Source: Streptomyces piniterrae (lineage in GTDB: Bacteria; Actinomycetota; Actinomycetes; Streptomycetales; Streptomycetaceae). From it: a stretch of 64,000 nucleotides of DNA. This document shows positions 29,271 to 43,746 of this stretch, in pieces (position 1 is the first letter of the stretch; every line of letters starts with the position of its first letter). Position numbers and translations under genes: made by a program. The notes under the pieces were generated by a model, which was given only the letters and a program-made list of their open reading frames with translations, had not been told where the DNA came from and made no database searches. The DNA is taken from contig NZ_SUMB01000002.1 of the NCBI RefSeq assembly GCF_005048155.1, positions 310,001 to 374,000 of the forward strand. Direction: 5' to 3'.

Positions 29271-29651
29271 ATGGTGGACTGGGGTCTCCGGCCGGCATCT
29301 GTGTCGGACGTCGCGGCAGTGGCAGAGCTGCGTGCCGTGGTGTTGCGGGCGGATCTGGAACGGCTCGGGCGGTACGACGAGGAGCGGGTGCGGCAGCGGC
29401 TCCGGGACGGGTTCGAACCGGCGCACACCTGGGTCATCGAGGTGAGCGGCGCTTTGGCCGGCTGTGTGGCGCTGCGTCGGGCCGAGGACGCGCACTGGCT
29501 GGAGCACTTCTACCTGGCCCCGCATCTTCAGGGCAGCGGCATCGGTTCGGGCGTGCTGCGCGAGCTGCTGGCGCGGTGCGACCGCAGCGGCGTCCCGGTC
29601 CGTTTGAACGATCCCAGCCGGCTCCACAACCGTGTGTTAAGTCCCTGTTGA
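29271..29651 (+). pseudogene. GNAT acetyltransferase, C-terminally truncated
   Basis: 126 codons from ATG 29271. The N-terminal part is a normal GNAT: LRPASVSDVAAVAELRAVVLRAD, a WVIEVSGALAGCVALRR strand, LEHFYLAPHLQGSGIGSGVLRELLAR (acetyl-CoA loop Q-x-x-G-x-G/A). After VPVRLN the family should continue with the last strand and helix (N-x-x-A-x-x-x-Y-E-x-x-GF). Instead the frame reads DPSRLHNRVLSPC and stops. The break coincides with entry into the conserved leader of the next gene (from 29626), so the 3' part was probably replaced by incoming DNA. Confidence 0.7.
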
Positions 29652-29734
29652 GTGGAGCGTAAGAGCCATCCGGATCTTTGTGGCCCGAGACGCCTTGTGG
29701 GCCGCGGCGTCACCCGTGCCTGAGAGCAGCGTGG
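29626..29734 (+). promoter_or_regulatory. Conserved 109-nt leader (copy A) of the orphan binding-protein gene
   Basis: Homologous, with identical total length, to 34040-34148. Two conserved blocks keep their spacing: ACAACCG...GTTAAGTCC-n-TGTT-n-AG at the start, and 60 nt later CGAGACGCC...GGCGTC...GTGCCTGA. Block 1 is a direct repeat of GTTAAG-like units with an 11-nt period, the geometry of OmpR/PhoB-type regulator sites. Block 2 can form a GACGCC/GGCGTC stem. Confidence 0.75.
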
Positions 29735-31129
29735 ATGGAGCACATGCCGGTGCGTACGAACATGCGATTCATGAGCGCGGGGCGCCGTGTCGCCGTCCCG
29801 CTCACCGCACTCCTGACCGCCGCCGTCCTGCTGTTTTTGGCCGGCTGGCCCGGAGCGGGTGACGGCGACAGGGGCGGGAAGTCGGTGAACGTGCTCATGG
29901 TGAACAACCCTCAGATGCTCGATCTGCAGAAGCTGACGAAGGAGCATTTCACCAAGCGGACCGGCATCAAAGTCAATTACACCGTTCTGCCCGAAAACGA
30001 TGTACGCGACAAGATAAGGCGGGAGTTCTCCAGCCAGGCCGGCACCTATGACGTGGCATCACTCAGCAACTTCGAGGCGCCCCTTTACGGAAAGTACGGC
30101 TGGCTGGCCCCGCTGGACCACACCGTCGCCCGGGCCCCGTCCTTCGACCAGAACGACATCCTCACCCCGATCCAGGTGGGTCTGATCGGGGACGACGGCA
30201 ATCTCTACGCTGAGCCTTTCTACGGCGAGTCGTCATTCTTGATGTACCGCAAGGACGTCTTCGAGGCCAAAGGGCTGCGCATGCCCGACCATCCGACCTG
30301 GAAGCAGGTTGCCGGTCTGGCGGCCGAGGCGGACGGCGCCCGGCCGGGTATGAAGGGCATCTGCCTGCGTGGCCTGCCCGGCTGGGGTCAGGTCATCGCC
30401 CCGCTGACCACGGTGGTCAACACCTTCGGCGGCACTTGGTTCACCAAGGACTGGAAAGCGCAGGTCAACGGCCCCGGCTTCACCGAGGCGGCCAAGTTGT
30501 ATGTCGACCTTGTGCGCGCTCATGGTGAGCCCGGTGCCGCGAAGGCCGGATTCGCCGAATGCCTGGCCAACTTCCAGCAGGGCAGGACCGCCATGTGGTA
30601 CGACGCCACCTCGGCTGCCGGACCCCTGGAGTCCAGGGACTCGCCCATCGCCGGCAAGGTCGGCTACGCCATGGCCCCGGTCAGCAAGACCAAGAGCTCG
30701 GGGTGGCTGTACTCGTGGGCCTGGGGCATCCAGAAGGCGAGCCCGCGCCAGGACGCTGCGGCGCGGTTCATCGCCTGGGCCTCCGGCAAGCAGTACGAGG
30801 AACTGGTCGGGGACCAGCTCGGCTGGGCGAGGGTGCCGGCCGGCAAGCGCGCCTCGACCTTTGCCAACCCCGACTACCGCAAGAGCGCCGCCGCCTTCTA
30901 CACGGCCACCAAGGAGGCCATCAACAGCGCCGCCCCCCACAACCCCGGGCTGCAGGCACGTCCGACCGTTGGCGTCCAGTTCGTGGACATCCCCGAGTTC
31001 CCGGACCTGGCGACCAAGGTCTCCCACGAGATCGCCTCAGCCATCGCCGGCCACACATCGGTGACCTCCGCTCTGGACAAGGGGCAGAAACTCGCTTCCG
31101 ATGTGGCCGCGAGATACCGCAAGGATTGA
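29735..31129 (+). CDS. Orphan ABC sugar/polyol solute-binding protein
   Basis: 464 aa; the ATG at 29735 aligns with the LuxR start in the homologous leader. The body is a family-1 extracellular solute-binding protein (mannitol/sorbitol SmoE-like): VNVLMVNNPQMLDLQKL, FTKRTGIKVNYTVLPENDVRDKI, AEPFYGESSFLMYRKDVFE, FQQGRTAMWYDATSAAG. The hydrophobic signal (about 20-37) ends LFLAGWPGAG: where a lipobox LAGC is expected, Trp replaces Cys, so it is probably released or signal-anchored rather than lipidated. No permease or ATPase gene follows, unlike a normal importer operon. Confidence 0.88.
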   Translation: MEHMPVRTNMRFMSAGRRVAVPLTALLTAAVLLFLAGWPGAGDGDRGGKSVNVLMVNNPQMLDLQKLTKEHFTKRTGIKVNYTVLPENDVRDKIRREFSSQAGTYDVASLSNFEAPLYGKYGWLAPLDHTVARAPSFDQNDILTPIQVGLIGDDGNLYAEPFYGESSFLMYRKDVFEAKGLRMPDHPTWKQVAGLAAEADGARPGMKGICLRGLPGWGQVIAPLTTVVNTFGGTWFTKDWKAQVNGPGFTEAAKLYVDLVRAHGEPGAAKAGFAECLANFQQGRTAMWYDATSAAGPLESRDSPIAGKVGYAMAPVSKTKSSGWLYSWAWGIQKASPRQDAAARFIAWASGKQYEELVGDQLGWARVPAGKRASTFANPDYRKSAAAFYTATKEAINSAAPHNPGLQARPTVGVQFVDIPEFPDLATKVSHEIASAIAGHTSVTSALDKGQKLASDVAARYRKD

Positions 31130-32342: not shown

Positions 32343-33866
32343 CTACGGGGTCGGCCATTGGGGATCCCGGCATGCACGATCGGGCGGCGCGGCCAGGTCT
32401 GCTCCTGGCGCGCCGGTGGTGCTGCGGACCTGGGCGGCCAGTGCCTGTGCGCTGGGGGCGGGGCGGTGGGCGAGGCGGTGGATGCGCCAGATGAGGACGT
32501 GTGCCGGAGACCGGACGCCAGCCAAGTCGCAGTGGCGGGCGGCCTGTTGAAGGAGACGGGCCGGCTGGTGGCCCACGGCTTCGGCCTCCGCGAGAACGGC
32601 GAACAACGCGCCCCATGCCGGGTCGAACAGGACCTGCTGCGCGTGCTCGGGCACGGCGGCGCGCAGGAGCTGCGCGTAGCGCGTGGGGGTCTCCGTCGTC
32701 GGCATACGCAGGGCGAGGGCGGCCAGGGGCTTGGCGGCGGCCAGATCGTAGGCGTCCTGCAGATGCTGCAAGGTCCGGCGGGCGGCGATGACCTGAGCGT
32801 CGTGATCGCGGAGCTGATGCCAGCGGATGGCGGCGATGACGGTGAGGACGGCTGAGCCGAGGAACATCGCGAGCGCCGCCGCATGCCCCTTCACCGGCTC
32901 GCGGCTCATGGCACGGACGGCGCTCCGCAGTGCGCGGGCGTGGTGGTGGTCGGCGCGGATGCGGGAGCGGGGCCGGGTCACCCGCTCGAAGGCGAGGGCC
33001 GCCAGCTGGAGTTGGGGTCCGATGCTCTGGGGAGAGAGGGACGGAAGGGCGGCGAGTGCGGCGCCGAAGGCGGCGAGGTGGGCCTGGGCTGCTGCGTCGT
33101 CGTCGCGGTCGAGGAGCGTGGGTATGCGTTCGACGGCGGCGGTGGCCTGGTGCCAGGGGTTGGGTTTGGGCCGGCCCGGGTGCGGGCTGATGAACTGCGG
33201 GTCGATGGCCTCGAGATGTTCTCGGAAGGTCGGCTGATGGTCGGCGTGGTGGGCCCTTTTGTGCTCGGCGCCGACGGCCTGGTGCAAGCCGTACTCGCGC
33301 TCGATGAGGGCGAGTTCCCGGTCGGCAGCCTGGTGATCGTTCTGGTGCCGGGCGGGCCGGAGGTCTCCTCGTACGGTGGTGGCGAGGATATGGATGTGGT
33401 CGTCGGCATGGCGGACGGCGACCCACCGGCAGCCGGCGCCGCCTTCGGGGGCGATACCGGTGGCATGCACGAGGCGGCGGGCGATGGCCGCCCAGTCCTC
33501 GTCGGGGAGGCTGCGGTCCTCGGGTGCGGCGTGGACGGAGCAGTGCCACACGTGCCGTACGGGTGCGCGGTCGCCGGCCTGCTCGACCCTCAGGTTCAGC
33601 GCCGCGATGAGCCGGTCCTGGGCGCGTGGAAAATCTGCGGAGCGGCCGGGGTCGGGCGCGGAGTTGTGCCATGAGGCGACCAGGTGGGGGTCGGTGTGCT
33701 CGTTGGCGAGGCCGGGTCCGTAGAAGTGGGTGATCAGGTCGTGGGTGTTCTTGGCGTGGGTGATGTCGGCGATCAATCCGGCCGCCTTCTTCCTGCTTCT
33801 TCCTGAACGCCGTGCGGTGCGCGCAGGCGTCGACGGGGGCGAGTGTGCCCGGAACGTGGCCGCCAT
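32343..33866 (-). CDS. Relaxase/mobilisation nuclease (MobA/VirD2-type)
   Basis: 507 aa. Family landmarks: HDLITHFYGPGLANEHTDPH near residue 45 (catalytic Tyr region and the conserved GPG...NEHTDPHLVASW) and the metal-binding RHADDHIHILATTVR near residue 158. The first 30 residues (Ser/Arg-rich) do not belong to the family, whose members start close to ITHAKNTHDL, so the start may be internal or the N-terminus altered. The C-terminal half includes a hydrophobic segment GHAAALAMFLGSAVLTVIAAIRW near residue 330. Nicks oriT during conjugative mobilisation of actinobacterial integrative elements. No integrase, replication or Tra gene is nearby, so this is a remnant or a mobilisable piece. Confidence 0.82.
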   Translation of the reverse strand: MAATFRAHSPPSTPARTARRSGRSRKKAAGLIADITHAKNTHDLITHFYGPGLANEHTDPHLVASWHNSAPDPGRSADFPRAQDRLIAALNLRVEQAGDRAPVRHVWHCSVHAAPEDRSLPDEDWAAIARRLVHATGIAPEGGAGCRWVAVRHADDHIHILATTVRGDLRPARHQNDHQAADRELALIEREYGLHQAVGAEHKRAHHADHQPTFREHLEAIDPQFISPHPGRPKPNPWHQATAAVERIPTLLDRDDDAAAQAHLAAFGAALAALPSLSPQSIGPQLQLAALAFERVTRPRSRIRADHHHARALRSAVRAMSREPVKGHAAALAMFLGSAVLTVIAAIRWHQLRDHDAQVIAARRTLQHLQDAYDLAAAKPLAALALRMPTTETPTRYAQLLRAAVPEHAQQVLFDPAWGALFAVLAEAEAVGHQPARLLQQAARHCDLAGVRSPAHVLIWRIHRLAHRPAPSAQALAAQVRSTTGAPGADLAAPPDRACRDPQWPTP

Positions 33867-34039: not shown

Positions 34040-34148
34040 ACAACCGCGCGTTAAGTCCGTGTTAAGCGGTCGCCCAGCGCGACGAGGACGCTTGTCCTCC
34101 GAGACGCCGCATGACCGGCGGCGTCCCTGTGCCTGACGAGGAGCATGG
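34040..34148 (+). promoter_or_regulatory. Conserved 109-nt leader (copy B) of the LuxR-type gene
   Basis: Second copy of the leader at 29626-29734. GTTAAGTCCGTGTTAAG is an almost exact direct repeat with an 11-nt period. CGAGACGCC and GGCGTC lie 60 and 80 nt after the first base, exactly as in copy A, and the ATG follows at the same distance. GAGGAG precedes the start. Confidence 0.75.
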
Positions 34149-34775
34149 ATGGACCGCATTCCCGTGTGTATCCACGCGGACGATCCGATCTCACAGCTCG
34201 GAGTGACCGCGGAGCTCAGGCCGCGGCCGGAGGTGCGGGTGCTCGGAACCGATGAGACGGACGAGGCGAGGGTCGCCGTGGTCGTCACCGGCGCGGTGAC
34301 CGAGGAAACCCCACAGGTCCTGCGGTCGGTCACCGCCCGGATGAGCGAGGCTCGACTGGTGCTGGTCACCCCGGAGATCGAGGAGTCGGACCTGGTGCCC
34401 GTGGTGGAGGCGGGTGTGGTGGGGGTGGTCCGCCGCAGGGATGCCACCGCGGAACGGCTGGTCACGGTGCTCCGATCGGCCGCGGCGGGGGAGGGAGCCG
34501 TACCACCGGATCTGTTGGGCCGGCTGCTCGACCAGGTCGGCCGTGTGCAGCGTCAGGTGCTGGCGCCACGCGGCCTCAACTTCAACAACCTCACGGAACG
34601 GGAGATCCAGGTGCTACGGCTCGCCGCGGAAGGGCTCGACACCGCTGAGATCGCGGCTGCGGTCGCCTACTCCGCACGGACGGTGAAGCAGGTCCTCCAC
34701 GACTTCCAGATGCGCTTTCAACTCCGGAACCGCTGCCATGCCGTGGCATATGCCACGCGGAACGGCCTGATCTGA
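34149..34775 (+). CDS. LuxR/NarL-type regulator with atypical receiver-like domain
   Basis: 208 aa, ATG after GAGGAG. The C-terminal 65 residues are a GerE/LuxR helix-turn-helix (LTEREIQVLRLAAEGLDTAEIAAAVAYSARTVKQVLHDF). The N-terminal 130 residues have the beta-alpha pattern of a response-regulator receiver (PVCIHADDPISQLGV, ARVAVVVTGAV, ARLVLVTPEI, AGVVGVVRRRDAT), but the acceptor Asp at the end of strand 3 is replaced by the VVVTGAV segment. Phosphorylation-independent control is therefore likely. It lies between the relaxase and the sigma-DUF642 gene, transcribed toward the latter, and shares its leader with the orphan binding protein. Confidence 0.87.
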   Translation: MDRIPVCIHADDPISQLGVTAELRPRPEVRVLGTDETDEARVAVVVTGAVTEETPQVLRSVTARMSEARLVLVTPEIEESDLVPVVEAGVVGVVRRRDATAERLVTVLRSAAAGEGAVPPDLLGRLLDQVGRVQRQVLAPRGLNFNNLTEREIQVLRLAAEGLDTAEIAAAVAYSARTVKQVLHDFQMRFQLRNRCHAVAYATRNGLI

Positions 34776-34838: not shown

Positions 34839-35005
34839 ACGACTTCCCCATGGTGCCGGGACGTCTCCCCATGGGGCGGCTTTCGCGGAACACGGCGTCA
34901 GCCATGAACCACGCGACTAGGGTCTCTCGGACAACGCTGGGCTGCTGGGACCCGCGCGCCGAGCAGCCGGAAGGCGTGTCCGGCTGGGTGCAGAGGTTGG
35001 GTGGG

Positions 35006-36781
35006 ATGGCGGGGAAGTCGAGCCAGGGGCGAGAGCCCGGGGAGTTCACGGAGACAGGGCCCGGCGCACAGGGCGAACAGTGCGACGCGGAACTCATAGT
35101 GCGCGCCCGGGCCGGGGACGACACCGCCTTCGGTGTCCTCTACACACGCCATGTGGAATCGGCTCATCGGCTGGCCCGCCTCTACACGTCCACTCCGGCC
35201 GATGCGGAAGACATCGCGTCCGAGGGTTTCACCCAAGTGCTCAGCGCGGTTCGCGCCGGTGGCGGCCCACGGGAGGCGTTTCGGCCCTACGTACTGACCA
35301 CGGTGCGTCGGATCGCGGCCAGGAGAGCCGCGGGGGCGAAGCGGGATATGCCCACGCCGGAGCTGGAGAGCTACGCGCCCCTGATCCCCTTCGAGGACCC
35401 CGTCCTGGCCGATCTGGAAGCGTCGCTGGTCGCGCGCGCTTTCGTGGCGCTGCCCGAGCGCTGGCAGGCCGTCCTGTGGCACACCGCGGTGGAGGGGCAG
35501 AGCCCGGCTCAGGTGGCGGAACACCTCGGGTTATCGGCCAACGCAGTCGCCGCGCTGGCCGTCCGCGCCCGCGAGGGACTGCGCAAGGAGTATCTGCAGG
35601 CGCATCTGTCCGCGGAGAAGATGGAGCGGGAGTGCCGCAGTTGCGCCTCGAAGCTGGCCGCCTACGTACGCGGGTCGCTCAGCGCGCGGGCTCGACGCCG
35701 CGTCGAGGAGCACCTCACCGAGTGCGACCGCTGCGCTTTGCTGCTGCCGGAGCTTCGTGAGATCTCCGGCCGGTTGCGCGGCATCCTGGCCCCGCTGATC
35801 CTGGGCCCGGTCTTCGCCGGGTACTTCACCACACTGGCCGACGGATCACCGGGCGAGACGGCGGACGGTGACGAGGAGCCGGACGACGACACCGGACTTG
35901 GCGAGGCGATGGCAGGCGGCGGCGCTTCATCGGGAGCCGCGGGCGCCGTTACCGCGCTGGCAGCCATCGTCGTCGCTCTCGCGGTGGCCGGCACGCATCT
36001 CCTGCCCGAGGGCTCCGCCTCGCATCCCCGCACGGCAGGCACAGCCCCCGCCACCGGTCCCGGTCCCGGTCCCGACCCATGGCGCACGACCGCGCCCGCA
36101 TCACCGGAGCCCGACCCGTCCCACCCGAAGCCGCCCGCACCGGCGGAATCCCGGCCGGGCCACCGCGGGGTCGAGCCAGGTACGAAGCCGGCCCCGAGCA
36201 CCTCCCAGGACCACACCGACGCCCCGTCCGACTCCCTGTCCAGCACCCCGTCGAACGACCCCGGCCCCGCCCCCGACCCCCCGCTGAGCGACGGCGCCTT
36301 CGAGTCGCCCTCGGTCGGCGATTCCCCTCATATCCCTTACAGCAACGGCCAGTTCATCGGCGGATGGCGGGTCGAGAACTCCGTGAACCTGACCGGATCA
36401 AAGGCGTGGCAGCCGGAGAACGGCACGCAGTCACTCGATCTGAACGGCGATCCGCCCGGCGCCGCAAACGGAGCGATCAGCCAAAGCCTGGCCACCGAGC
36501 CGGGTCAGCGATACAAGGTGAGCTTCTACCTGGCCGGCAATCTCACCTGCGGGCCCGCCGTGAAATCCCTGACCGTCCAGGTCGCCGCCGTCTCGAAGAA
36601 CTTCTCCTTCGACACCACCGGGCATTCGGCCTCCGCGATGGGGTGGCGGCAGACGACCGTGGGCTTCACCGCGGCCGGTGACAGGACCACGCTGCGCCTG
36701 GCCAGTACCACCGACCCGAACAGCGCCTGCGGGCCGGCCATCGACAACATCAAGGTCACTGCCCATAAGAAAGCACACTGA
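35006..36781 (+). CDS. Membrane-tethered ECF sigma factor: sigma, zinc finger, TM, extracellular DUF642-like domain
   Basis: 591 aa from ATG 35006 (AGAGG upstream; in-frame ATGs at 34850 and 34904 lack RBS). Sigma region 2 about 25-110 (DAELIVRARAGDDTAFGVLY, DAEDIASEGFTQVLSAV), region 4 about 140-198 (LPERWQAVLWHTAVEGQSP). Then a zf-HC2-type anti-sigma finger (HLTECDRC, about 235-243), hydrophobic segments about 262-280 and 307-333, a Pro/Ser-rich linker, and from about 428 a DUF642/choice-of-anchor-C-like beta-sandwich (DGAFESPSV, SLDLNG, ISQSLATEPGQRYKVSFYLAGN, ACGPAIDNIKV). ECFs with such C-terminal extensions are known in Actinobacteria; release by proteolysis or conformational change is inferred. 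A TTA codon (35531-35533) lies in region 4, so translation may need bldA tRNA. Confidence 0.88.
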   Translation: MAGKSSQGREPGEFTETGPGAQGEQCDAELIVRARAGDDTAFGVLYTRHVESAHRLARLYTSTPADAEDIASEGFTQVLSAVRAGGGPREAFRPYVLTTVRRIAARRAAGAKRDMPTPELESYAPLIPFEDPVLADLEASLVARAFVALPERWQAVLWHTAVEGQSPAQVAEHLGLSANAVAALAVRAREGLRKEYLQAHLSAEKMERECRSCASKLAAYVRGSLSARARRRVEEHLTECDRCALLLPELREISGRLRGILAPLILGPVFAGYFTTLADGSPGETADGDEEPDDDTGLGEAMAGGGASSGAAGAVTALAAIVVALAVAGTHLLPEGSASHPRTAGTAPATGPGPGPDPWRTTAPASPEPDPSHPKPPAPAESRPGHRGVEPGTKPAPSTSQDHTDAPSDSLSSTPSNDPGPAPDPPLSDGAFESPSVGDSPHIPYSNGQFIGGWRVENSVNLTGSKAWQPENGTQSLDLNGDPPGAANGAISQSLATEPGQRYKVSFYLAGNLTCGPAVKSLTVQVAAVSKNFSFDTTGHSASAMGWRQTTVGFTAAGDRTTLRLASTTDPNSACGPAIDNIKVTAHKKAH

Positions 36782-36808
36782 GCCGGCCGAGCCGTCCTGC
36801 GGGACAGG

Positions 36809-36861
36809 AAGGCCCCGTGACCGGTGAAGATGCGACACATCCAGCACCCGCACGGGGCCTT
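36809..36861. terminator. Hairpin after the sigma factor gene
   Basis: AAGGCCCCGTG (36809-36819) pairs perfectly with CACGGGGCCTT (36851-36861). It lies between the ends of the sigma gene (+) and the BTAD regulator gene (-), so it can serve both. Confidence 0.65.
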
Positions 36862-36931
36862 GCCGCGATCAGGACCAACGAGATTCCGATCAGGCCCACG
36901 ACACTCCACAACACCGATACAACGCCGATGC

Positions 36932-38350
36932 TCAGGACACCCGGTGCGGTCGGCCGGCGTACTGCCGCTGCATCGGGGTTCCCCTCCGGGAGGTGGGGGA
37001 CGAGGTGGCGGTGACGCCGACAGCCGGTTCGTCGGTATCGAGGCCGAGTGAGGCGAGCGTGGCGGCATACCGCCGTCGGGCCTGCTCGGCGGCGGCGGGT
37101 GCGCCGATGCGGTGGTAGGTCCTGAGCAGCAGGTGCCACCCCGTGTCGTGAAAACGGTCGATGGCGAGACATTTCTCGGCCGCTGCCACGGCTTCCTGCA
37201 GATTGCCGGCCTGGAGCTCGACGGCGGCGAGTTCCGCAGCGGCGTCGGCCGCCTGGCGCCGGTAGATCTCGCGGTCCTGCTGTAGCCACTCGGCGGGGCC
37301 GTCCTCGGGGAGCAGCTCACCGTGGTACTGGGCGAGGGCGTCCCGCAGGCCCTGAACCGCCGCGGCGGTGTCCCCGCTTGCCTTGGCCTGCCTGCCGCGG
37401 GTCAGCGCGGTCTGGAACGCGAGGGTGTCGAGGTAGGCGTCGGACGGCAGGTTGAGCAGGTAGGCGTCACCGACGCGGACCACCAGTCGTGGTTTGCCCC
37501 GATCCCTGTCGGGTTCCAGGACACCGCGCAGGCTGGAGACGGCCACTTGCAGATTGGCCGTGGCCGACTTGGGGTGCACGTCCGGCCAGAGCGCCTCGAT
37601 GAGGGCCTCCCGGTGCATGGGCCGGCCCGCACGCATGGTGAGCAACCTCATCGCGGCGCGGGCGCGGGGGCGGACCTTCGTCCAGTCGATCACCAGGTCA
37701 CCGACGGTCATCCGGAATCCGCCGAAGCACCTGATCGCTACCCGGGGATTCCGCTCGCCCGGGTACGCGGACACCGCCGGTGGATGCCATCGGCCGGACG
37801 GTCCGTCCGGGCCGCTCTGTACGGCGGCCGGTGATGCGCCGGCGGAGCCCGGCGCGGGAGTGCACCGCGGCTCCTCGTCGGCATCGAGCAGCGCGAGGAG
37901 TTCCCGGGCCCAGGACCGGATCAGGTGGGCATCCGTCGCGCGGCGGCATCCGGCCGCCGCGGTCAGATGTTGCCCGCAGCCTTCGCAGGAGGGGTCGGTC
38001 GGGGAAGCCCCGGAGCCGGCGGGCGCCGGTCCCGTGTGGTCGTCACGACAGCCGCACCCGGCGGTGGCCGAGACGGCGTCCGGCCTCTGGGCCGCGATGC
38101 GCCAGGCGCTGCGGACCGCTTGGCTGGACCGGGGCATGCCGGTCGAGTCCAGGCGACCGGCCACCTGCTTGAGCGTTCTCGTGCCCTCGTCGCCGCCGTC
38201 GGCATCCTGAATCAGGCGCAGGGCGACCCGCAGCAGTTGCAGTCCGACATCAGCCCCCGACAGGTCGGTCGGCTGTGTGCCGGTGGTGCAGTGGCCGCCC
38301 GCGTCATGGACGAGTCGGCTCCTGGGCAAGGGCGCGTCACGCTTCCGCAC
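36932..38350 (-). CDS. BTAD/SARP-type transcriptional regulator
   Basis: 472 aa from GTG 38350 (GAAGG about 8 nt upstream); a GTG at 38398 would add 16 residues. The N-terminal half is poorly conserved and contains a CEGCGQHL motif and Pro/Ser-rich linker. The C-terminal half has an OmpR-type winged helix (VAIRCFGGFRMTVGDLVIDW, AMRLLTMRAGRPMHREALIEALWPD, ANLQVAVSSLRGVLEP) followed by a bacterial transcriptional activation domain with TPR-like helices (LLPEDGPAEWLQQDREIYRRQ, CLAIDRFHDTGWHLLLRTYHRIG). SARP-type winged helix before BTAD, but longer in front than typical SARPs. No biosynthetic cluster is adjacent; likely target is the local DUF642/transport region. Confidence 0.85.
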   Translation of the reverse strand: MRKRDAPLPRSRLVHDAGGHCTTGTQPTDLSGADVGLQLLRVALRLIQDADGGDEGTRTLKQVAGRLDSTGMPRSSQAVRSAWRIAAQRPDAVSATAGCGCRDDHTGPAPAGSGASPTDPSCEGCGQHLTAAAGCRRATDAHLIRSWARELLALLDADEEPRCTPAPGSAGASPAAVQSGPDGPSGRWHPPAVSAYPGERNPRVAIRCFGGFRMTVGDLVIDWTKVRPRARAAMRLLTMRAGRPMHREALIEALWPDVHPKSATANLQVAVSSLRGVLEPDRDRGKPRLVVRVGDAYLLNLPSDAYLDTLAFQTALTRGRQAKASGDTAAAVQGLRDALAQYHGELLPEDGPAEWLQQDREIYRRQAADAAAELAAVELQAGNLQEAVAAAEKCLAIDRFHDTGWHLLLRTYHRIGAPAAAEQARRRYAATLASLGLDTDEPAVGVTATSSPTSRRGTPMQRQYAGRPHRVS

Positions 38351-38427
38351 GTCGGCATCCTTCTCCCTCCCTGGCTGCGCATCACAGTTTGTGTCCACAC
38401 CTACACAGAGACGTCCGGTGCCGCGCT

Positions 38428-38643
38428 ATGACGGGAAAACACCGAGAAATTTCTGACCCGACGCGCCCGGCCGTGGCCGCCCTTTCGTGCGACTCGGCCA
38501 CCCCGAAGACCGCCCCGAATGCGGCTGCGGAAGGCGACCCGGACGCCAACCATGTGACGGGCGGTCGATGGGCGGTGACCGCGCAGGAGAAGCGGACCGT
38601 GCGACAACGACGCCGGACGAGGGACACCCCCCGTGCCCTGTGA
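38428..38643 (+). CDS. Possible small hypothetical protein
   Basis: 71 aa from ATG 38428 (MTGKHREISDPTRPAV...). Third-position GC is high and the composition is protein-like, but no RBS is visible and no domain is recognised. It lies in the 571-bp gap between the BTAD gene (-) and the next supported gene (+); the gap otherwise shows no gene. Confidence 0.3.
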   Translation: MTGKHREISDPTRPAVAALSCDSATPKTAPNAAAEGDPDANHVTGGRWAVTAQEKRTVRQRRRTRDTPRAL

Positions 38644-38921
38644 CGTCGGCGGTCGCCGTACGCCTTCTCCTCGCGGCGCCGTCGCGCCGCCCTGGCCCGC
38701 TCGACGCGGCCGGTCACCTGATGTGTGGGCGGGAGGAGACCGGCCGGTCGGGCGGCGCCGGGCATCTGGTGGGAGATCTCGTGACCGTCCCCGCGCGGTG
38801 CGGAACCGGACGCGAACACGTCGGTTGTCCCGCCGCTGCCGCACCCCATCGGCTGTGCGAGAACGACGAGCCGGTCCGGACATCGGTCCTGCGCGACGGA
38901 CACTGTGAGGAGCCGCTACCC

Positions 38922-39314
38922 ATGCACACCAAGGCATACAGACCACCTGCGCTGCCCACCATCGGGGGCTGCGAGTTACGGGCCGCGGGCGTCGACTGGG
39001 ACGCGGTCCGCGTGCCCCGCCGCATCGGCATACACGCCCTGGCGTTCCTGGGGAACCGCAGCGGTGCCGTGATCGAGGACCCGTGCGAGCCCGTTGTCTA
39101 CTGGTTCGTCCGCGAGGGTTCGACAACCGGGTGGGACGTACCGGAAACCCGGCCGCTCGGCGTGACGCAGCACCTCGTGGTTCCGCCTCCGCATCGCGTC
39201 GAAGGGCCGGGGCCGCACTGGCGGATCCGGCCCGCCGACGGCCGGCTGATCACCGACGTCCGGGCACTGCGAACGGCTGTCGAGGCCGCGGTCGCACAGT
39301 TCGCCGGCCTCTGA
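38922..39314 (+). CDS. Conserved hypothetical protein, DNA primase/polymerase-accessory-like
   Basis: 130 aa from ATG 38922, with GAGGAG upstream. Compact, single-domain, no membrane segment. The pattern GVDWDAVRVPRRIGIHALAFLG, GAVIEDPCEPVVYWFVREGSTTGWDV, TQHLVVPPPHRVEGPGPHWRIRP is one I associate with uncharacterised actinobacterial proteins often near mobile elements; a precise family name is not claimed. It precedes the symporter by 130 bp on the same strand. Function unknown. Confidence 0.65.
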   Translation: MHTKAYRPPALPTIGGCELRAAGVDWDAVRVPRRIGIHALAFLGNRSGAVIEDPCEPVVYWFVREGSTTGWDVPETRPLGVTQHLVVPPPHRVEGPGPHWRIRPADGRLITDVRALRTAVEAAVAQFAGL

Positions 39315-39444
39315 GACGAGGCGGCGTGAGTGCCGCCCCGGACGCCGTCCTTTCCCGAAGGACGGAACGGCCCGCCCCTCACCGGCGGGCCACCGCGGCC
39401 GAAACCGGTCGTGGCCAACCGTGTGTGCGCCGAGGGAGAAACAG

Positions 39445-40977
39445 GTGGAGCTGCGGACCGCCGGACCGGCAATGATCGTATTCGGGATCTTCATCATCGT
39501 GGTGATCATCGTGGGGATCTGGGCCTACTGGGAGACCCCTACCTTCCCCGACTTCGCTCTCGGCGGCCGACGAATCAACGCCCTGGTCACCGCCCTGTCG
39601 GCCGAGGCCAGCGATATGTCGGGCTGGCTTTTCCTCAGCCTTCCGGGCGCCGTGTACGCGGCGGGAATCGGGGCCGCATGGATAGCCGTCGGCCTCATCA
39701 TCGGTACGTATCTCAACTGGCGATGCGTCGCCCCGCGTCTGCGTACCTACACCGAAAAGGCCGACAACTCCCTGACCCTGTCCGCATATCTCGAAGAACG
39801 ATTCGAGGACCGCAGCGGGAATCTTCGCACGGTCTCGGCGACCGTCACCGTCGTGTTCTTCACTCTCTACGTGGCGAGCGGATTCGTCGCGGGTGGCCTG
39901 CTGTTCCAGCAGATCTTCGGCGTCGACTTCGCATTCGGCCTCACCGTTGTCGCCGGAGTGATGGTCGTGTACTCCGTACTCGGCGGCTTCCGCGCCGTGA
40001 GCACGACTCATGTGGTGCAGGGCGCGCTGATGGTCTTCGCGGCCTGCGCTCTTCCCGTCATCGTCTTCGGGCACCTCGGGGACCTCTGCTCAGTGCACCG
40101 TGCGATCGCGGAAAAGAGCCCGGCACTGCTCGACATGAGTGCGAAGGCCTCCTTCGCCGACGGCCGTTGGGGGGCGGGCGAGCCGCTGGGTGTCATCGCG
40201 GTCGGCTCCCTGCTCGCATGGGGGCTCGGCTATTTCGGACAGCCGCACATCCTGGCCCGCTTCATGGCCATCCGCAGCACGAAGGACATCCCACTGGCCC
40301 GGCGTATCGGGGTGAGCTGGGTCGTCGCCTCGCTGACCGGCGCGAGCCTCGTGGGACTCCTCGGCATCGCCTCGCTCCACCAACCGGTCCGCGACCAGGA
40401 GATGGTCTTCATCGAACTGGTCAAGCAGTCGGTCAACCCATGGTTCGGCGGAGTGCTGTTCGTTGCGGTGCTGGCTGCGATCAAATCGACCGCGGACAGC
40501 CAGTTGCTGGTCGCGGCGACCTCCCTCACCGAGGACTTCTTCCGCGCGTTCCACAACCGGCGTGCCTCGGACGCGACATTGGTGACGGTGACGCATGCGG
40601 CGCTGCTCGGAGTCGCGGTGGTCGCCTACGGGATCGCCCTCAGCGGGGGCGCCGTGCTGAACATCGTCGCCCATGCCTGGGCGGGCTTCGGTGCGGCCTT
40701 CGGCCCGGTGCTCCTGCTGTCGCTCTACTGGCCGCGCATGACCAGGGCGGGCGCGTTGGCCGGCATCGTCACGGGTGCGCTCACGGTCGTCCTGTGGAAG
40801 CACATCGACCCGCTCCTCGGGCCGTTCCGGACCGGCGTCTACGAGATGGTGCCCGGCGTACTCGCGGCCACCGCCGCCGCCCTGCTCTTCGGATCCTTCG
40901 CCGGCCGCCCGCCACGGCGCTCATGGGCCGGGACGATGCAGGAAGCGGGCTCCGCCACGATGACCGGACCGCGCTGA
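39445..40977 (+). CDS. Sodium:solute symporter, PutP-like
   Basis: 510 aa from GTG 39445 (GGAG 6 nt upstream), the length of PutP (about 500). Thirteen hydrophobic segments; the first is MIVFGIFIIVVIIVGIWAYW. PutP/SSS landmarks: FALGGRRINALVTALSAEASDMSGWLF (Na-site region in TM2), GLLFQQIFGVDFAFGL, VYSVLGGFRAVSTTHVVQG, GYFGQPHILARFMAI, FVAVLAAIKSTADSQLLVAAT. Most similar in pattern to proline symporters, but sugar or organic-acid transport cannot be excluded. It is followed by a rhamnosidase remnant and secreted DUF642-like proteins. Confidence 0.88.
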   Translation: MELRTAGPAMIVFGIFIIVVIIVGIWAYWETPTFPDFALGGRRINALVTALSAEASDMSGWLFLSLPGAVYAAGIGAAWIAVGLIIGTYLNWRCVAPRLRTYTEKADNSLTLSAYLEERFEDRSGNLRTVSATVTVVFFTLYVASGFVAGGLLFQQIFGVDFAFGLTVVAGVMVVYSVLGGFRAVSTTHVVQGALMVFAACALPVIVFGHLGDLCSVHRAIAEKSPALLDMSAKASFADGRWGAGEPLGVIAVGSLLAWGLGYFGQPHILARFMAIRSTKDIPLARRIGVSWVVASLTGASLVGLLGIASLHQPVRDQEMVFIELVKQSVNPWFGGVLFVAVLAAIKSTADSQLLVAATSLTEDFFRAFHNRRASDATLVTVTHAALLGVAVVAYGIALSGGAVLNIVAHAWAGFGAAFGPVLLLSLYWPRMTRAGALAGIVTGALTVVLWKHIDPLLGPFRTGVYEMVPGVLAATAAALLFGSFAGRPPRRSWAGTMQEAGSATMTGPR

Positions 40978-41079
40978 ATTCCTCGCGAGCCCGCACAGTC
41001 CACAGCCGCACTTCTCACCACAGGCAACCCCTACGGGGCAGCAACCGAACACGGGCACGGCAGACTGGAGTGACGCCAG

Positions 41080-42150
41080 GTGATCGTTCCCTTCACCCTC
41101 TGGCAGCGGTACGGCGACGTGAAGCTGGTGCGGGACCACTACGCCGCGATGGCCGCGTGGATCGACCGTCTGGAGTCGCACGGCAGCGGTCTGATCCAGC
41201 CGGCCGGCGGATACGGCGATTGGTTGGACATCGACGACGGCACACCGCTCGACCTCGTCGGCACCGCCTACTTCGCCGAGTCCACCGCGATGATGGCTCA
41301 GATGTCCCGCGCCCTGGGCAGGAGCTACGACGCCATGCGGTACCTGGCGCTGTGGTCGGACATCCGCGATGCCTTCCATACGAGGTTCGTCGGAGCGGAC
41401 GGACAGGTCGGCAACGGCAGTCAGACGTCGTACGTGCTCGCTCTCGGCTTCCGTCTGGTTCCCGACGGGCTCGTCAAGGCCGCGGCCGACAAGCTGGTCG
41501 CCGTCATCAAGGCGCACGGCGGGCAGTTGACGACCGGCTTCCTCGGTACCGGGGGGCTGCTGCCGGTACCGACCGCCACCGGGTACTCCGACGTCGCGTA
41601 CCAGCTGCTGGAACAGAAGACCGTTCCTCCATGGGGCTGCCAGATCGGCAACGGCGCGGCGACGGTCTGGATGCGCTGCGACGTCATCCCAACCGCCGGA
41701 ATTCCGCACGCCCCGGTACCGAACTCGCTCAACCATTTCGGGCTCGGCGCGGTGGGCGACTGGATTCACCGCACGGTAGGCGGTATCGATCCCGACCCCG
41801 AACATCCCGGATACAAACACTTCTTCCTCCGCCCCGTCCCCGGCGTGGGGACGTCCGGCTCCGGCCCCGGGTGGGCAGACGAGAGATACCTCTCGCCGTA
41901 TGGACAGGTCCGCAGCTGCTGGGAGCGGTCGGAGGGCGCATTCGCCCTGCGCGCGACCGTGCCGGGGAACTCCACGGCGACCGTGTTCGTGCCGGCGTCC
42001 TCCCGTAACGCGGTCAGCGCACCGCCGGGCGCGTGTTTCGTCCGCACAAGCGGTGGCGCGGTCGTCTACGAGGTCGGCTCCGGCACGTACACGTTTACCG
42101 CCCGCTGGTCCGGGGATTCCGCGGCGAAGGTTCAGGGACGCGCCCGGTAA
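41080..42150 (+). pseudogene. GH78 alpha-L-rhamnosidase, C-terminal fragment
   Basis: 356 codons from a GTG at 41080 (GGAG about 9 nt upstream). The sequence is the later part of a GH78 (alpha/alpha)6 barrel plus the C-terminal beta domain: IVPFTLWQRYGD, GYGDWLDIDDG, TAYFAESTAMMAQMSRALG, QTSYVLALGFRLVP, TGFLGTGGLLPV, NSLNHFGLGAVGDWIHRTVGGI, PGYKHFFLRPVPG. Full-length enzymes are about 900-1100 aa. The N-terminal domains and the first barrel helices, with the conserved DCPQRDERLGW-type catalytic acid region, are missing. There is no signal peptide. An RBS and intact frame mean it may still be translated, but it should be catalytically dead as a rhamnosidase. Confidence 0.8.
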
Positions 42151-42286
42151 ACCGAATTCTGTTGCACGCATGGCGCCGCCCCATCGGGCGCCGGAGAGTT
42201 CCCCAACCGCCGCCCACTCGGCCTTACCGGCACCAGTGGCACGTCACCACAATTGTGTTGCCAAAGCCGCTCCGGCGAATCAACCC

Positions 42287-42316
42287 GAAGAGTCGACCAA
42301 ATGAAGAGTCGACCAA
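42287..42316. repeat. 14-bp direct repeat in the leader of the first DUF642-like gene
   Basis: GAAGAGTCGACCAA is present at 42287-42300 and 42303-42316 (period 16), followed by a partial third copy (GAAGA) that merges into the RBS AGAGGA. A palindrome CACAATTGTG sits at 42248-42257. Both lie just upstream of the ATG at 42333. Confidence 0.8.
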
Positions 42317-42332
42317 TCGAAGAAGAGGACTC

Positions 42333-42974
42333 ATGAAACGTCGTAGCTTAACCGCGTCAGCATTAGCGGTCTCCTCGGCCATTGCTGCCACCGGAGCATT
42401 CGTCGGAATCCAGTTCGCCTCGGCGCCGGTGGCCTCTGCGGCCGGCAGCGCCGTCAGCCGCTTCGACGACGGCAGCTTCGAGACTCCCAAGGTCGCACCG
42501 AACACGTTCCAGACCTTTACCGCAGGGGAGTTCGTCGGCCCGTGGAAGGTCACCAGCGGATCGGTGGACGTCAAGGACGCCGGATACTGGCAGGCAGCCG
42601 AGGGAGACCAGTCCCTGGACCTCAACGGCACCGAAACGGGCGCTGTGTCCCAGACCTTCGCCACGAACCGCGGGTCCACGTACACCGTTACCTACTCGCT
42701 CGCCGGTAATTCCGACGGCCAGGCCCCGACCCCGAAGACCGGCAAGGTCCTCATCGACGGCCAGAACGTCCAGGACTTCTCCTTCGACGCCACCGGCAAA
42801 ACGCACCAGAACATGGGCTACGTGACACGGGAGGTGGGCTTTGTGGCCACCGGCTCGTCCACCACCCTGACGTTCGCCAGTACCACCCCCCACAGCGCCG
42901 GCGGGCCGGTGATCGACGACGTCCAGGTCGAACGCTGCAAGTCCGTCTGCTGCCCGTCCGATTGCGGCGACTGA
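42333..42974 (+). CDS. Secreted DUF642-like protein A
   Basis: 213 aa, ATG after AGAGGA. Sec signal peptide (about 1-38, ...ASAAG). The mature protein is one DUF642/choice-of-anchor-C-like domain: FDDGSFETPKVAPNTF, GPWKVTSGSVDVKDAGYWQ, QSLDLNGTETGAVSQTF, YTVTYSLAGN, FSFDATGKTHQNMGYV, LTFASTTPHSAGGPVIDDV. It ends in a Cys-rich tail (RCKSVCCPSDCGD). Tandem paralogue follows after 127 bp and the same domain caps the sigma factor at 35006. Two TTA codons (42348-42350, 42363-42365) lie in the signal peptide, predicting bldA-dependent translation. Likely extracellular surface or carbohydrate-binding protein; no enzyme motif. Confidence 0.85.
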   Translation: MKRRSLTASALAVSSAIAATGAFVGIQFASAPVASAAGSAVSRFDDGSFETPKVAPNTFQTFTAGEFVGPWKVTSGSVDVKDAGYWQAAEGDQSLDLNGTETGAVSQTFATNRGSTYTVTYSLAGNSDGQAPTPKTGKVLIDGQNVQDFSFDATGKTHQNMGYVTREVGFVATGSSTTLTFASTTPHSAGGPVIDDVQVERCKSVCCPSDCGD

Positions 42975-43003
42975 CAACGAACCCGGGCACCCCACAGCCC
43001 TGA

Positions 43004-43020
43004 CGCAGCGATCCGCTGCG
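43004..43020. terminator. Hairpin between the two DUF642-like genes
   Basis: CGCAGCG and CGCTGCG are perfect 7-bp arms with a 3-nt loop, 30 nt after the first gene's stop. Could be an attenuator or processing site between the two genes. Confidence 0.5.
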
Positions 43021-43035
43021 CGAGCAATCAGCCGT

Positions 43036-43061
43036 CAGGCCGATTAATCCCAGGCCGATTA
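43036..43061. repeat. CAGGCCGATTA direct repeat upstream of the second DUF642-like gene
   Basis: CAGGCCGATTA at 43036-43046 and 43051-43061 (period 15), 41 nt before the ATG. Candidate activator site; different from the repeat before the first gene. Confidence 0.65.
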
Positions 43062-43101
43062 CTTCGCACATCACTTCAAGGTGATAACCCGAGAGGATCT
43101 C

Positions 43102-43746
43102 ATGCTGGTCTCACGCACTTCCCTCACCGCCCTCACCACGGCGGCCATCCTGCTCGCCGGTGCCGGCACCGCGCTTGCCTCCCCGGCAGACGGCAGCGGC
43201 CGGACGAGCCACCCGGCTGCGTCATCCACCGCCGCCGTGAGCCGCTTCGACGACGGCAGCTTCGAAACCCCCAAGGTGAACACGAACACCTTCGACGAAT
43301 TCGCGGCAGGGCAGTCCTTCGGCCCCTGGAAAGTCGCCAGTGGAACCGTTGATCTGATAGGCGCCGGATACTGGCAGGCAGCCGAGGGCGATCAGTCCCT
43401 GGACCTCAACGGCATGGACGCGGGGGCCGCGTCCCAGACCTTCAGCACGAAGCCAGGGGCCAGGTACACGGTGACGTACTCGCTCGCCGGAAACCCCGAA
43501 CTCGACCAGGTCCCGCCCGTGAAGACGGGCAAGGTCCTCATCGACGGCCAGAACGTCCAGGACTTCTCCTTCGACGTCACCGGCAAGACCAAGACGAACA
43601 TGGGCTACGTGAGACGGCAGGTGACCTTCGTGGCCACCGGCCCGGCCACGACCCTGACGTTCGCCAGCACCACTCTCCACAGCGCGACCGGACCGGTCGT
43701 CGACGACGTCACGGTCGAACGCTGCAAGCCCGACTGCTGCGACTGA
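43102..43746 (+). CDS. Secreted DUF642-like protein B
   Basis: 214 aa from ATG 43102 (GAGAGGATCT upstream). Sec signal peptide (TSLTALTTAAILLAGAGTALA). Mature domain strongly similar to protein A (FDDGSFETPKVNTNTF, GPWKVASGTVDLIGAGYWQ, QSLDLNGMDAGAASQTF, FSFDVTGKTKTNMGYV, LTFASTTLHSATGPVVDDV) with a shorter Cys tail (RCKPDCCD). Unlike A it has no TTA codon seen, so the two may be translated under different conditions. A perfect terminator follows. Confidence 0.85.
   Translation: MLVSRTSLTALTTAAILLAGAGTALASPADGSGRTSHPAASSTAAVSRFDDGSFETPKVNTNTFDEFAAGQSFGPWKVASGTVDLIGAGYWQAAEGDQSLDLNGMDAGAASQTFSTKPGARYTVTYSLAGNPELDQVPPVKTGKVLIDGQNVQDFSFDVTGKTKTNMGYVRRQVTFVATGPATTLTFASTTLHSATGPVVDDVTVERCKPDCCD

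Follow-up and report, generated by a model that had tools for sequence, protein, structure and literature searches.

Why would a Streptomyces genome encode the sensor domain of a membrane-tethered sigma factor again, as small secreted proteins a few kilobases away? This question is raised by a 64,000-nucleotide stretch of Streptomyces piniterrae (contig NZ_SUMB01000002.1, positions 310,001 to 374,000; referred to below as the window), in which one gene fuses an extracytoplasmic function (ECF) sigma factor to a DUF642 ectodomain, the sensor, and two genes downstream encode the single-domain DUF642 proteins soluble A and soluble B (Table 1). The domain architecture, the conserved neighbourhood, the kinship of the solubles, an apparent domain swap and conserved upstream elements lend the link between sensor and solubles good genomic support, and the switch and its secreted twins probably serve one process. 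The explanation preferred as a whole, held with middling confidence, is that of a conserved sensory locus in which soluble and tethered DUF642 act in one process and probably recognize the same ligand class.

The tethered sigma factor and its soluble relatives

The longest open reading frame (ORF) of the fusion gene starts at 34850 and encodes 643 aa, and the start at 35006 yields the 591-aa chain; protein positions follow the 643-aa numbering. Pfam recognized Sigma70_r2 at 97-164 (4.5e-8) and Sigma70_r4_2 at 195-242 (9.8e-7), both above cut-off, followed by zf-HC2 at 262-296 (5.2e-8) and DUF642 (PF04862) at 479-636 (1.3e-22, 80.7 bits; cut-off 27). The HxxxCxxC zinc motif is present in all ten aligned ECF-DUF642 chains, and nine of them (the exception being L092) carry a cysteine pair in the ectodomain that would fit an oxidising outer compartment. 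Hydropathy analysis revealed one clear hydrophobic helix at 361-380 and a weaker stretch at 311-330; with a single membrane helix, DUF642 is expected outside the cell, joined to the helix by a proline-rich linker (385-475). These results bear out the initial annotation, which had described a single chain of ECF sigma factor, zinc anti-sigma element, membrane segments and DUF642, except that the plural of the membrane segments is not established.

The two secreted DUF642 proteins were found where that annotation had placed them, starting 5.5 kb past the sensor gene, and the intervening DNA holds a SARP-type (Streptomyces antibiotic regulatory protein) regulator and a PutP-type symporter, both recurring in related loci. 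Their N-termini are signal-peptide-like by eye and their C-termini are Cys-rich tails; the tails at first seemed to set the pair apart, but DUF642 proteins from other loci have them too, and they were dropped as a hallmark. Pairwise alignment of the three domains by BLASTP, which had been proposed as a check, gave 43% identity between the sensor domain and either soluble (1e-30 and 3e-32) and 65% between A and B. All three copies exceed the Pfam cut-off of PF04862 and also that of NCBIfam TIGR04362, under which the domain is named choice_anch_C (125.5, 160.9 and 153.9 bits; cut-off 120). A search of the whole genome (8,488,863 bases) returned these three DUF642 matches only, and since all of them fall inside 7.4 kb, the clustering is beyond chance.

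An AlphaFold model of soluble B from start 43165 (m41e72ac9d2b1, pLDDT 81.1) consists mostly of beta strands and resembles beta-sandwich domains. Its best Foldseek match was an arabinanase module (E 8e-7), followed by the carbohydrate-binding modules (CBMs) CBM16, CBM4, CBM61, CBM35 and others, and VIA-align listed Stig cyclases (Z 14.3), CBM61 (14.0) and a meprin (12.7). A carbohydrate-binding role thus fits the predicted fold of soluble B, a fold that enzymes and adhesion domains share. Sequence relatives of either domain among solved structures were also sought, and none of the 2 and 5 matches (E 0.028 to 0.94) was accepted.

Recurrence of the pairing and exchange of its domains

A DUF642 match was present in 43 of 392 genomes of the genus and in 55 of 394 genomes of the family sample; the three genome draws (392, 394 and 343) overlap, and the distinct genomes are fewer than their sum. 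Besides the window genome, fusions were found in S. albospinus (G191), Streptomyces sp. NRRL S-337 (G194, two), S. hygroscopicus ATCC 21589 (G286), Streptantibioticus ferralitis (G415, two), S. rubrisoli (G423) and G583. A contig scan of GTDB r220 with the sensor-domain alignment, a search by peptide patterns that may overlook divergent members, returned 35 loci and added fusions in Streptomyces sp. NBC_01481, Streptomyces sp. CT34 and S. coffeae. This brings the distinct ECF-DUF642 chains to 12, all from Streptomycetaceae, and a sigma search over 165 loci yielded no ECF-DUF642 fusions beyond those from the genome draws. A 541-aa DUF642 ORF of G453, a fusion candidate by its length, was rejected, as tblastn detected no sigma domain in its locus.

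The neighbourhood is conserved along with the fusion. Neighbouring homologues were called by tblastn, as a simple gene finder missed genes and gave antisense ones. A LuxR-type regulator, the fusion and the SARP stand together in 10 of the 12 fused loci, the LuxR and SARP of CT34 (L088) and the SARP of G583 (L082) being matched in more than one piece. Among the nine cluster loci other than the window, the small protein c5 has a homologue in eight, the PutP-type symporter in seven (with a fragment only in NBC_01481, L085) and the solute-binding protein gene in four. Co-occurrence across genomes had been named beforehand as a test of the pairing, and a soluble DUF642 gene does lie within 8 kb of the fusion in six of the ten cluster loci, namely the window, NBC_01481, CT34, both Streptantibioticus (L089 and L093) and S. 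albospinus; that of S. albospinus (L090) is decayed, and the other five are intact. The soluble gene occurs in three arrangements, 3' of the symporter, beside the symporter but inverted, or divergent from LuxR. In S. coffeae (L086) the contig breaks off some 3 kb past the fusion, and the presence of a soluble there is not decidable. As a control, eight stretches of 19-20 kb around fusion-unlinked soluble DUF642 genes (L037, L038, L039, L040, L043, L044, L080 and L083; two from genomes with a fusion elsewhere) contained no LuxR, sigma, PutP, c5 or solute-binding homologue at E 1e-6, and only L044 gave a weak SARP match of 33% identity. One of these stretches carries a tandem soluble DUF642 pair with no fusion or cluster gene nearby (L040, 8809-10442, genome G380).

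Phylogenetic analysis groups most of the fused domains apart from the linked solubles. In a tree of 103 DUF642 domains, eleven of the 12 fused domains form one clade (99/97). In the first tree, whose bootstrap had not settled, a clade of eight (98/91) comprises the linked solubles, one unlinked soluble of Streptantibioticus ferralitis and the ectodomain of the second NRRL S-337 fusion (L034, 7315-9246). For a larger set with more actinobacterial rows, to which 25 of 30 additional small loci gave a sufficiently long domain, 12 non-actinobacterial loci were left out, identical domains were counted once and a further 8 long-branch rows were dropped, which left 103 rows; here the soluble clade holds nine rows including one metagenome-assembled sequence (99/88). 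By these trees, the linked solubles belong to one small clade of their own.

The fusion that falls among the solubles points to an exchange. The two fused chains of NRRL S-337 lie on one 54-kb contig, and a genome search found no separate soluble DUF642 gene in the draft. The sigma/anti-sigma part of L034 groups with those of CT34, S. albospinus and G583 (99/99), whose fused ectodomains are of the sensor type, and the L034 ectodomain is sister to soluble A of the window (80% identity, 100/97). The simplest reading is a natural domain swap, in which the domain of the partner replaced the ectodomain of the sensor. This apparent swap is the strongest hint that sensor and solubles do related work.

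Upstream elements and the weighing of explanations

In all ten cluster loci, about 100 bp 5' of LuxR, GTTAAGTCC-n-TGTTnAG-like repeats were found, consisting of two heptamers with a 4-bp spacer. When the own genome was searched with this pattern (at most one mismatch allowed), it matched exactly at 34050 and 29636, two sites of this locus, and nowhere else; the pattern in reverse, used as a control, gave one site. Heptameric direct repeats with a 4-bp spacer are described as typical of SARP regulators (PMC3367932, PMC10936776), and because of this geometry and the SARP gene in the locus, the SARP is the putative binder of the 11-bp-period repeats. Around the second copy, about 110 bp (29635-29750) resemble the LuxR 5' region through the first codons, and it looks as if the solute-binding protein gene captured the LuxR promoter and start by recombination; upstream of the solute-binding genes of other cluster loci, no comparably strong operator site was found.

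A candidate ECF promoter lies between LuxR and the fusion in all ten loci, with the consensus GGGAAC-N17-CTAGNGT in the relatives of the window. Its score is 14.9 to 21.7 bits in nine loci and 13.9 bits in the tenth (G583), compared with a median of 3.0, a 95% point of 9.3 and a 99% point of 17.9 bits in random 300-bp windows. Because both matrices, for operator and promoter, derive from the very loci that they score, these scores are not independent; the independent checks are the pattern search in the own genome and the upstream regions of the solubles. A further ECF-like promoter match (L089:15351) was rejected as marking a regulon gene, since a transposase-like ORF overlaps it by eye. The conserved candidate promoter makes autoregulation of the fusion gene by its sigma factor plausible.

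These elements can be combined into a mechanism in which the ligand, the proteolysis, the autoregulation, the SARP binding and the role of the solubles are what we infer. One membrane-spanning protein would serve as receptor, anti-sigma element and sigma factor, with a proline-rich stalk that keeps the DUF642 ectodomain, probably of CBM fold, outside the membrane. Binding of a surface or environmental glycan to the ectodomain would release the sigma part, by proteolysis or through a conformational change, and the released part would then activate its own promoter and a further regulon. The solubles would most likely bind the same ligand class outside the cell and present, retain or titrate it, and the sensor would read the ligand left or delivered by them. 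Expression of the locus would be set by the SARP and LuxR regulators via the 11-bp direct-repeat operator.

Several results weigh against a sensory locus of this kind. No linked soluble was found in the cluster loci of NRRL S-337, S. hygroscopicus and G583 (L087, L091 and L082); counting the locus cut by a contig end, four of the ten cluster loci show none, and two of the 12 fusions stand outside the cluster; the sensor can therefore do without the solubles. Soluble DUF642 proteins are encoded mostly by genomes that lack a fusion, and among the loci from the 43 genus genomes, sigma homologues above 55% identity were confined to the window genome, G191, G194 and G286. In the larger-set tree, the linked solubles and L034 alone are weakly united (82/40). 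The promoter of the window has a weak -35 and scores 15.5 bits, less than another window site at 1705 (15.7) and below the 99% point of the random windows, which also sample real promoters. Within 300 bp 5' of the six intact soluble genes the candidate ECF promoter was not found (0.7 to 5.2 bits). With regard to structure, the full-length AlphaFold model of the fusion was discarded as too poor (pLDDT 46.5), and consequently the fold of the sensor domain rests on homology to soluble B. The top Foldseek rows for soluble B also hold an F-box protein and Cry toxins, and the CBM-like fold is also that of the Stig cyclases (HpiC1) heading the VIA list; MAM domains are also among the matches.

A bolder form of the preferred explanation is somewhat unlikely in our judgement. 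The one-protein sigma receptor and dedicated soluble versions of its sensor domain would then work as a matched set: the solubles would supply the ligand, hold it back or bind to the receptor, and the domains would have been exchanged in evolution, as NRRL S-337 suggests.

A loop like that of sigma-I/RsgI in Clostridium thermocellum, with the soluble genes under direct transcription by the tethered sigma factor and with the domain shared because sensor and solubles both bind the inducing polysaccharide, is considered unlikely. Sensor and secreted copies do have domain and locus in common, and a precedent is reported, as the GH10 domain of RsgI6 is 57% identical to Xyn10D and the predicted Xyn10D promoter is recognised by sigma-I6 (PMC4711584). 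However, the candidate promoter present at all ten fusion genes is missing at the six intact solubles, and the soluble gene of CT34 is divergent from LuxR across a SARP-type operator. Direct sigma control of the solubles is therefore not indicated, and the earlier proposal that the sigma factor governs the two secreted genes is not supported, as far as a predicted motif can tell.

Rather improbable is also a receptor-ligand pair, in which soluble DUF642 would bind tethered DUF642 as an activator or inhibitor and provide self- or density-sensing. L034 indicates that the receptor slot can take a soluble-type domain, and the linked partners come from one small clade; on the other hand, evidence of DUF642-DUF642 contact is lacking, 57% of positions differ between sensor and soluble domains, and cluster loci such as L087, L091 and L082 have no linked soluble. 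Finally, a block merely inherited or moved together without functional link, which would suit the few independent lineages and a locus in flux (a rhamnosidase remnant, the decayed S. albospinus soluble, the fragmentary NBC_01481 symporter), is just as improbable given that the soluble is kept within 8 kb in three different arrangements, that the linked solubles share one small clade and that a domain swap appears in NRRL S-337.

The SARP (36932-38398) contains Trans_reg_C and BTAD domains, and c5 gave no Pfam or NCBIfam match at the thresholds used. The cluster symporter is a paralogue, as the genome has a second PutP-type symporter of 70% identity (contig C22, 567312-568808). Between the symporter and the solubles lies a remnant of a Streptomyces-type alpha-L-rhamnosidase gene, more fragmented in NBC_01481 (L085, 15802-16448), and G583 has a GH43-like protein between c5 and the symporter (L082, 12456-13922; 31.8 bits, Pfam cut-off 32.2). 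A gene with a MobA/VirD2-type relaxase domain adjoins the cluster (32343-33866) and is 80% identical in NBC_01481 (L085, 5874-7391).

Table 1. Features of the DUF642 locus, in window coordinates
Feature	Position	Strand	Description	Basis
Putative operator, second copy	29635..29665	+	100 bp 5' of ATG 29735 of the solute-binding protein gene	
Solute-binding protein gene	29735..31126	+	ABC-type, extracellular; SBP_bac_1	Pfam 2.3e-44; start 29735 by authors' reading
Putative operator	34049..34079	+	SARP-type; heptamers GTTAAGT / GTTAAGC, 4-bp spacer, 11-bp period	100 bp 5' of LuxR start
LuxR/NarL-type regulator gene	34149..34775	+	First cluster gene; GerE domain	Pfam GerE 3.8e-12
Putative ECF-type promoter of fusion gene	34894..34923	+	GGCGTC-N17-CTAGGGT	Aligned in 10/10 loci
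Tethered ECF sigma factor with DUF642 ectodomain	35006..36781	+	591 aa	ORF reading, Pfam, NCBIfam, hydropathy
Fusion: sigma2	35138-35341			
Fusion: sigma4	35432-35575			
Fusion: zinc anti-sigma motif	35633-35737			
Fusion: transmembrane helix	35930-35989			
Fusion: DUF642	36284-36757			
SARP-type regulator	36932..38398	-	BTAD + Trans_reg_C; longest ORF	Pfam BTAD 4.2e-14, Trans_reg_C 6.8e-7
c5	38922..39314	+	Conserved 130-aa protein without assigned function	tblastn homologue in 8/9 other cluster loci
PutP-type sodium/solute symporter	39421..40977	+		TIGR02121 556.5 bits, cut-off 515.5
Alpha-L-rhamnosidase gene remnant	41080..42150	+	C-terminal third	NF041573 profile positions 699-1027 of 1028
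Soluble A	42333..42974	+	Secreted single-domain DUF642 protein, 213 aa, Cys tail	Pfam, NCBIfam, BLASTP; start by authors' reading
Soluble B	43102..43746	+	Secreted single-domain DUF642 protein, 214 aa, Cys tail	Pfam, NCBIfam, BLASTP; start by authors' reading

Relation to known tethered sigma factors and regulators

ECF sigma factors with a fused membrane segment and extracellular part are known in Actinobacteria, as the initial annotation had stated. The groups ECF52 (SCO4117 of Streptomyces coelicolor) and ECF53 are described as combining an ECF sigma factor, a fused zinc-finger anti-sigma part, a helix, a proline-rich stretch and a C-terminal carbohydrate-binding domain, with activation by proteolysis proposed (PMC5826349, PMC8999054). 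A review notes that the glycosyl hydrolase and carbohydrate-binding domains of these groups still await validation by experiment (PMC10766802); the retrieved literature does not state what these sigma factors sense, nor does it mention soluble copies of the sensor domain.

By architecture the fusion resembles ECF52, since sigma regions 2 and 4, the fused HxxxCxxC part, the helix and the proline-rich extension are all present. The difference lies at the C-terminus, as SCO4117 ends in smart00776 and the fusion in DUF642, for which a CBM-like fold is predicted in soluble B and not in the sensor itself. Its name, together with what Pfam matched in L151, suggests that smart00776 is an NPCBM-type domain. 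The fusion is not the orthologue of SCO4117, because a distinct chain of the NPCBM type, with 43% identity in the sigma part, is encoded in its own genome; in a tree without SCO4117, the 12 DUF642 chains branch apart from that chain (100/100). This NPCBM chain is one of two other tethered ECF chains of the genome, the second of which ends in a ricin-B-type lectin domain that scores slightly below the Pfam cut-off (L151, L152 and L154 on contigs C9 and C27, with two sigma-like ORFs adjoining on C27). As the other tethered ECF sigma factors of the same genome end in this way, the ectodomain slot looks modular and lectin-like.

In the sigma-I/RsgI systems of C. thermocellum, a polysaccharide-binding ectodomain is reported to control a sigma factor; the GH10 domain of RsgI6 resembles the secreted Xyn10D, whose predicted promoter was recognised by sigma-I6 in a Bacillus subtilis host (PMC4711584). 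The likeness is that a sensor domain resembles secreted proteins, which there belong to the regulon. The differences are that sigma and anti-sigma factors are separate genes there and one ORF here, that the sigma factors belong to another group, and that the soluble genes here give no sign of sharing the sigma promoter (candidate motif, 6/6).

Plant DUF642 proteins are described as cell-wall proteins, some of which interact with pectin methylesterase (PMC9694414). With choice-of-anchor C / DUF642 proteins in general, all three copies here share a TIGR04362 match over cut-off, but they differ in that a sigma factor carries one of the copies as its ectodomain and that the linked solubles group in a small clade of their own. 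The regulatory side has a counterpart in PimR and PimM, where a SARP is reported to bind heptameric direct repeats with 4-bp spacers 5' of a LuxR-type regulator gene (PMC3367932). The repeat geometry 5' of LuxR is identical here; PimM, in contrast, is a PAS-LuxR regulator of an antibiotic cluster, and binding by the SARP of this locus is putative.

The impression that the pairing is undescribed held up in open-access searches, in which no paper with both 'ECF sigma factor' and 'DUF642' was found and none of the papers listed, judged from titles and the beginnings of abstracts, dealt with the pairing; this result is not proof of absence. The locus offers small secreted proteins with the domain of the sensor, a natural chimera and candidate promoters, which makes the ligand and the regulon of such a switch directly testable in an ordinary soil Streptomyces. 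Tethered ECF sigma factors with lectin-like ectodomains and the sigma-I/RsgI systems are known; new is the dedicated, exchangeable soluble partner.

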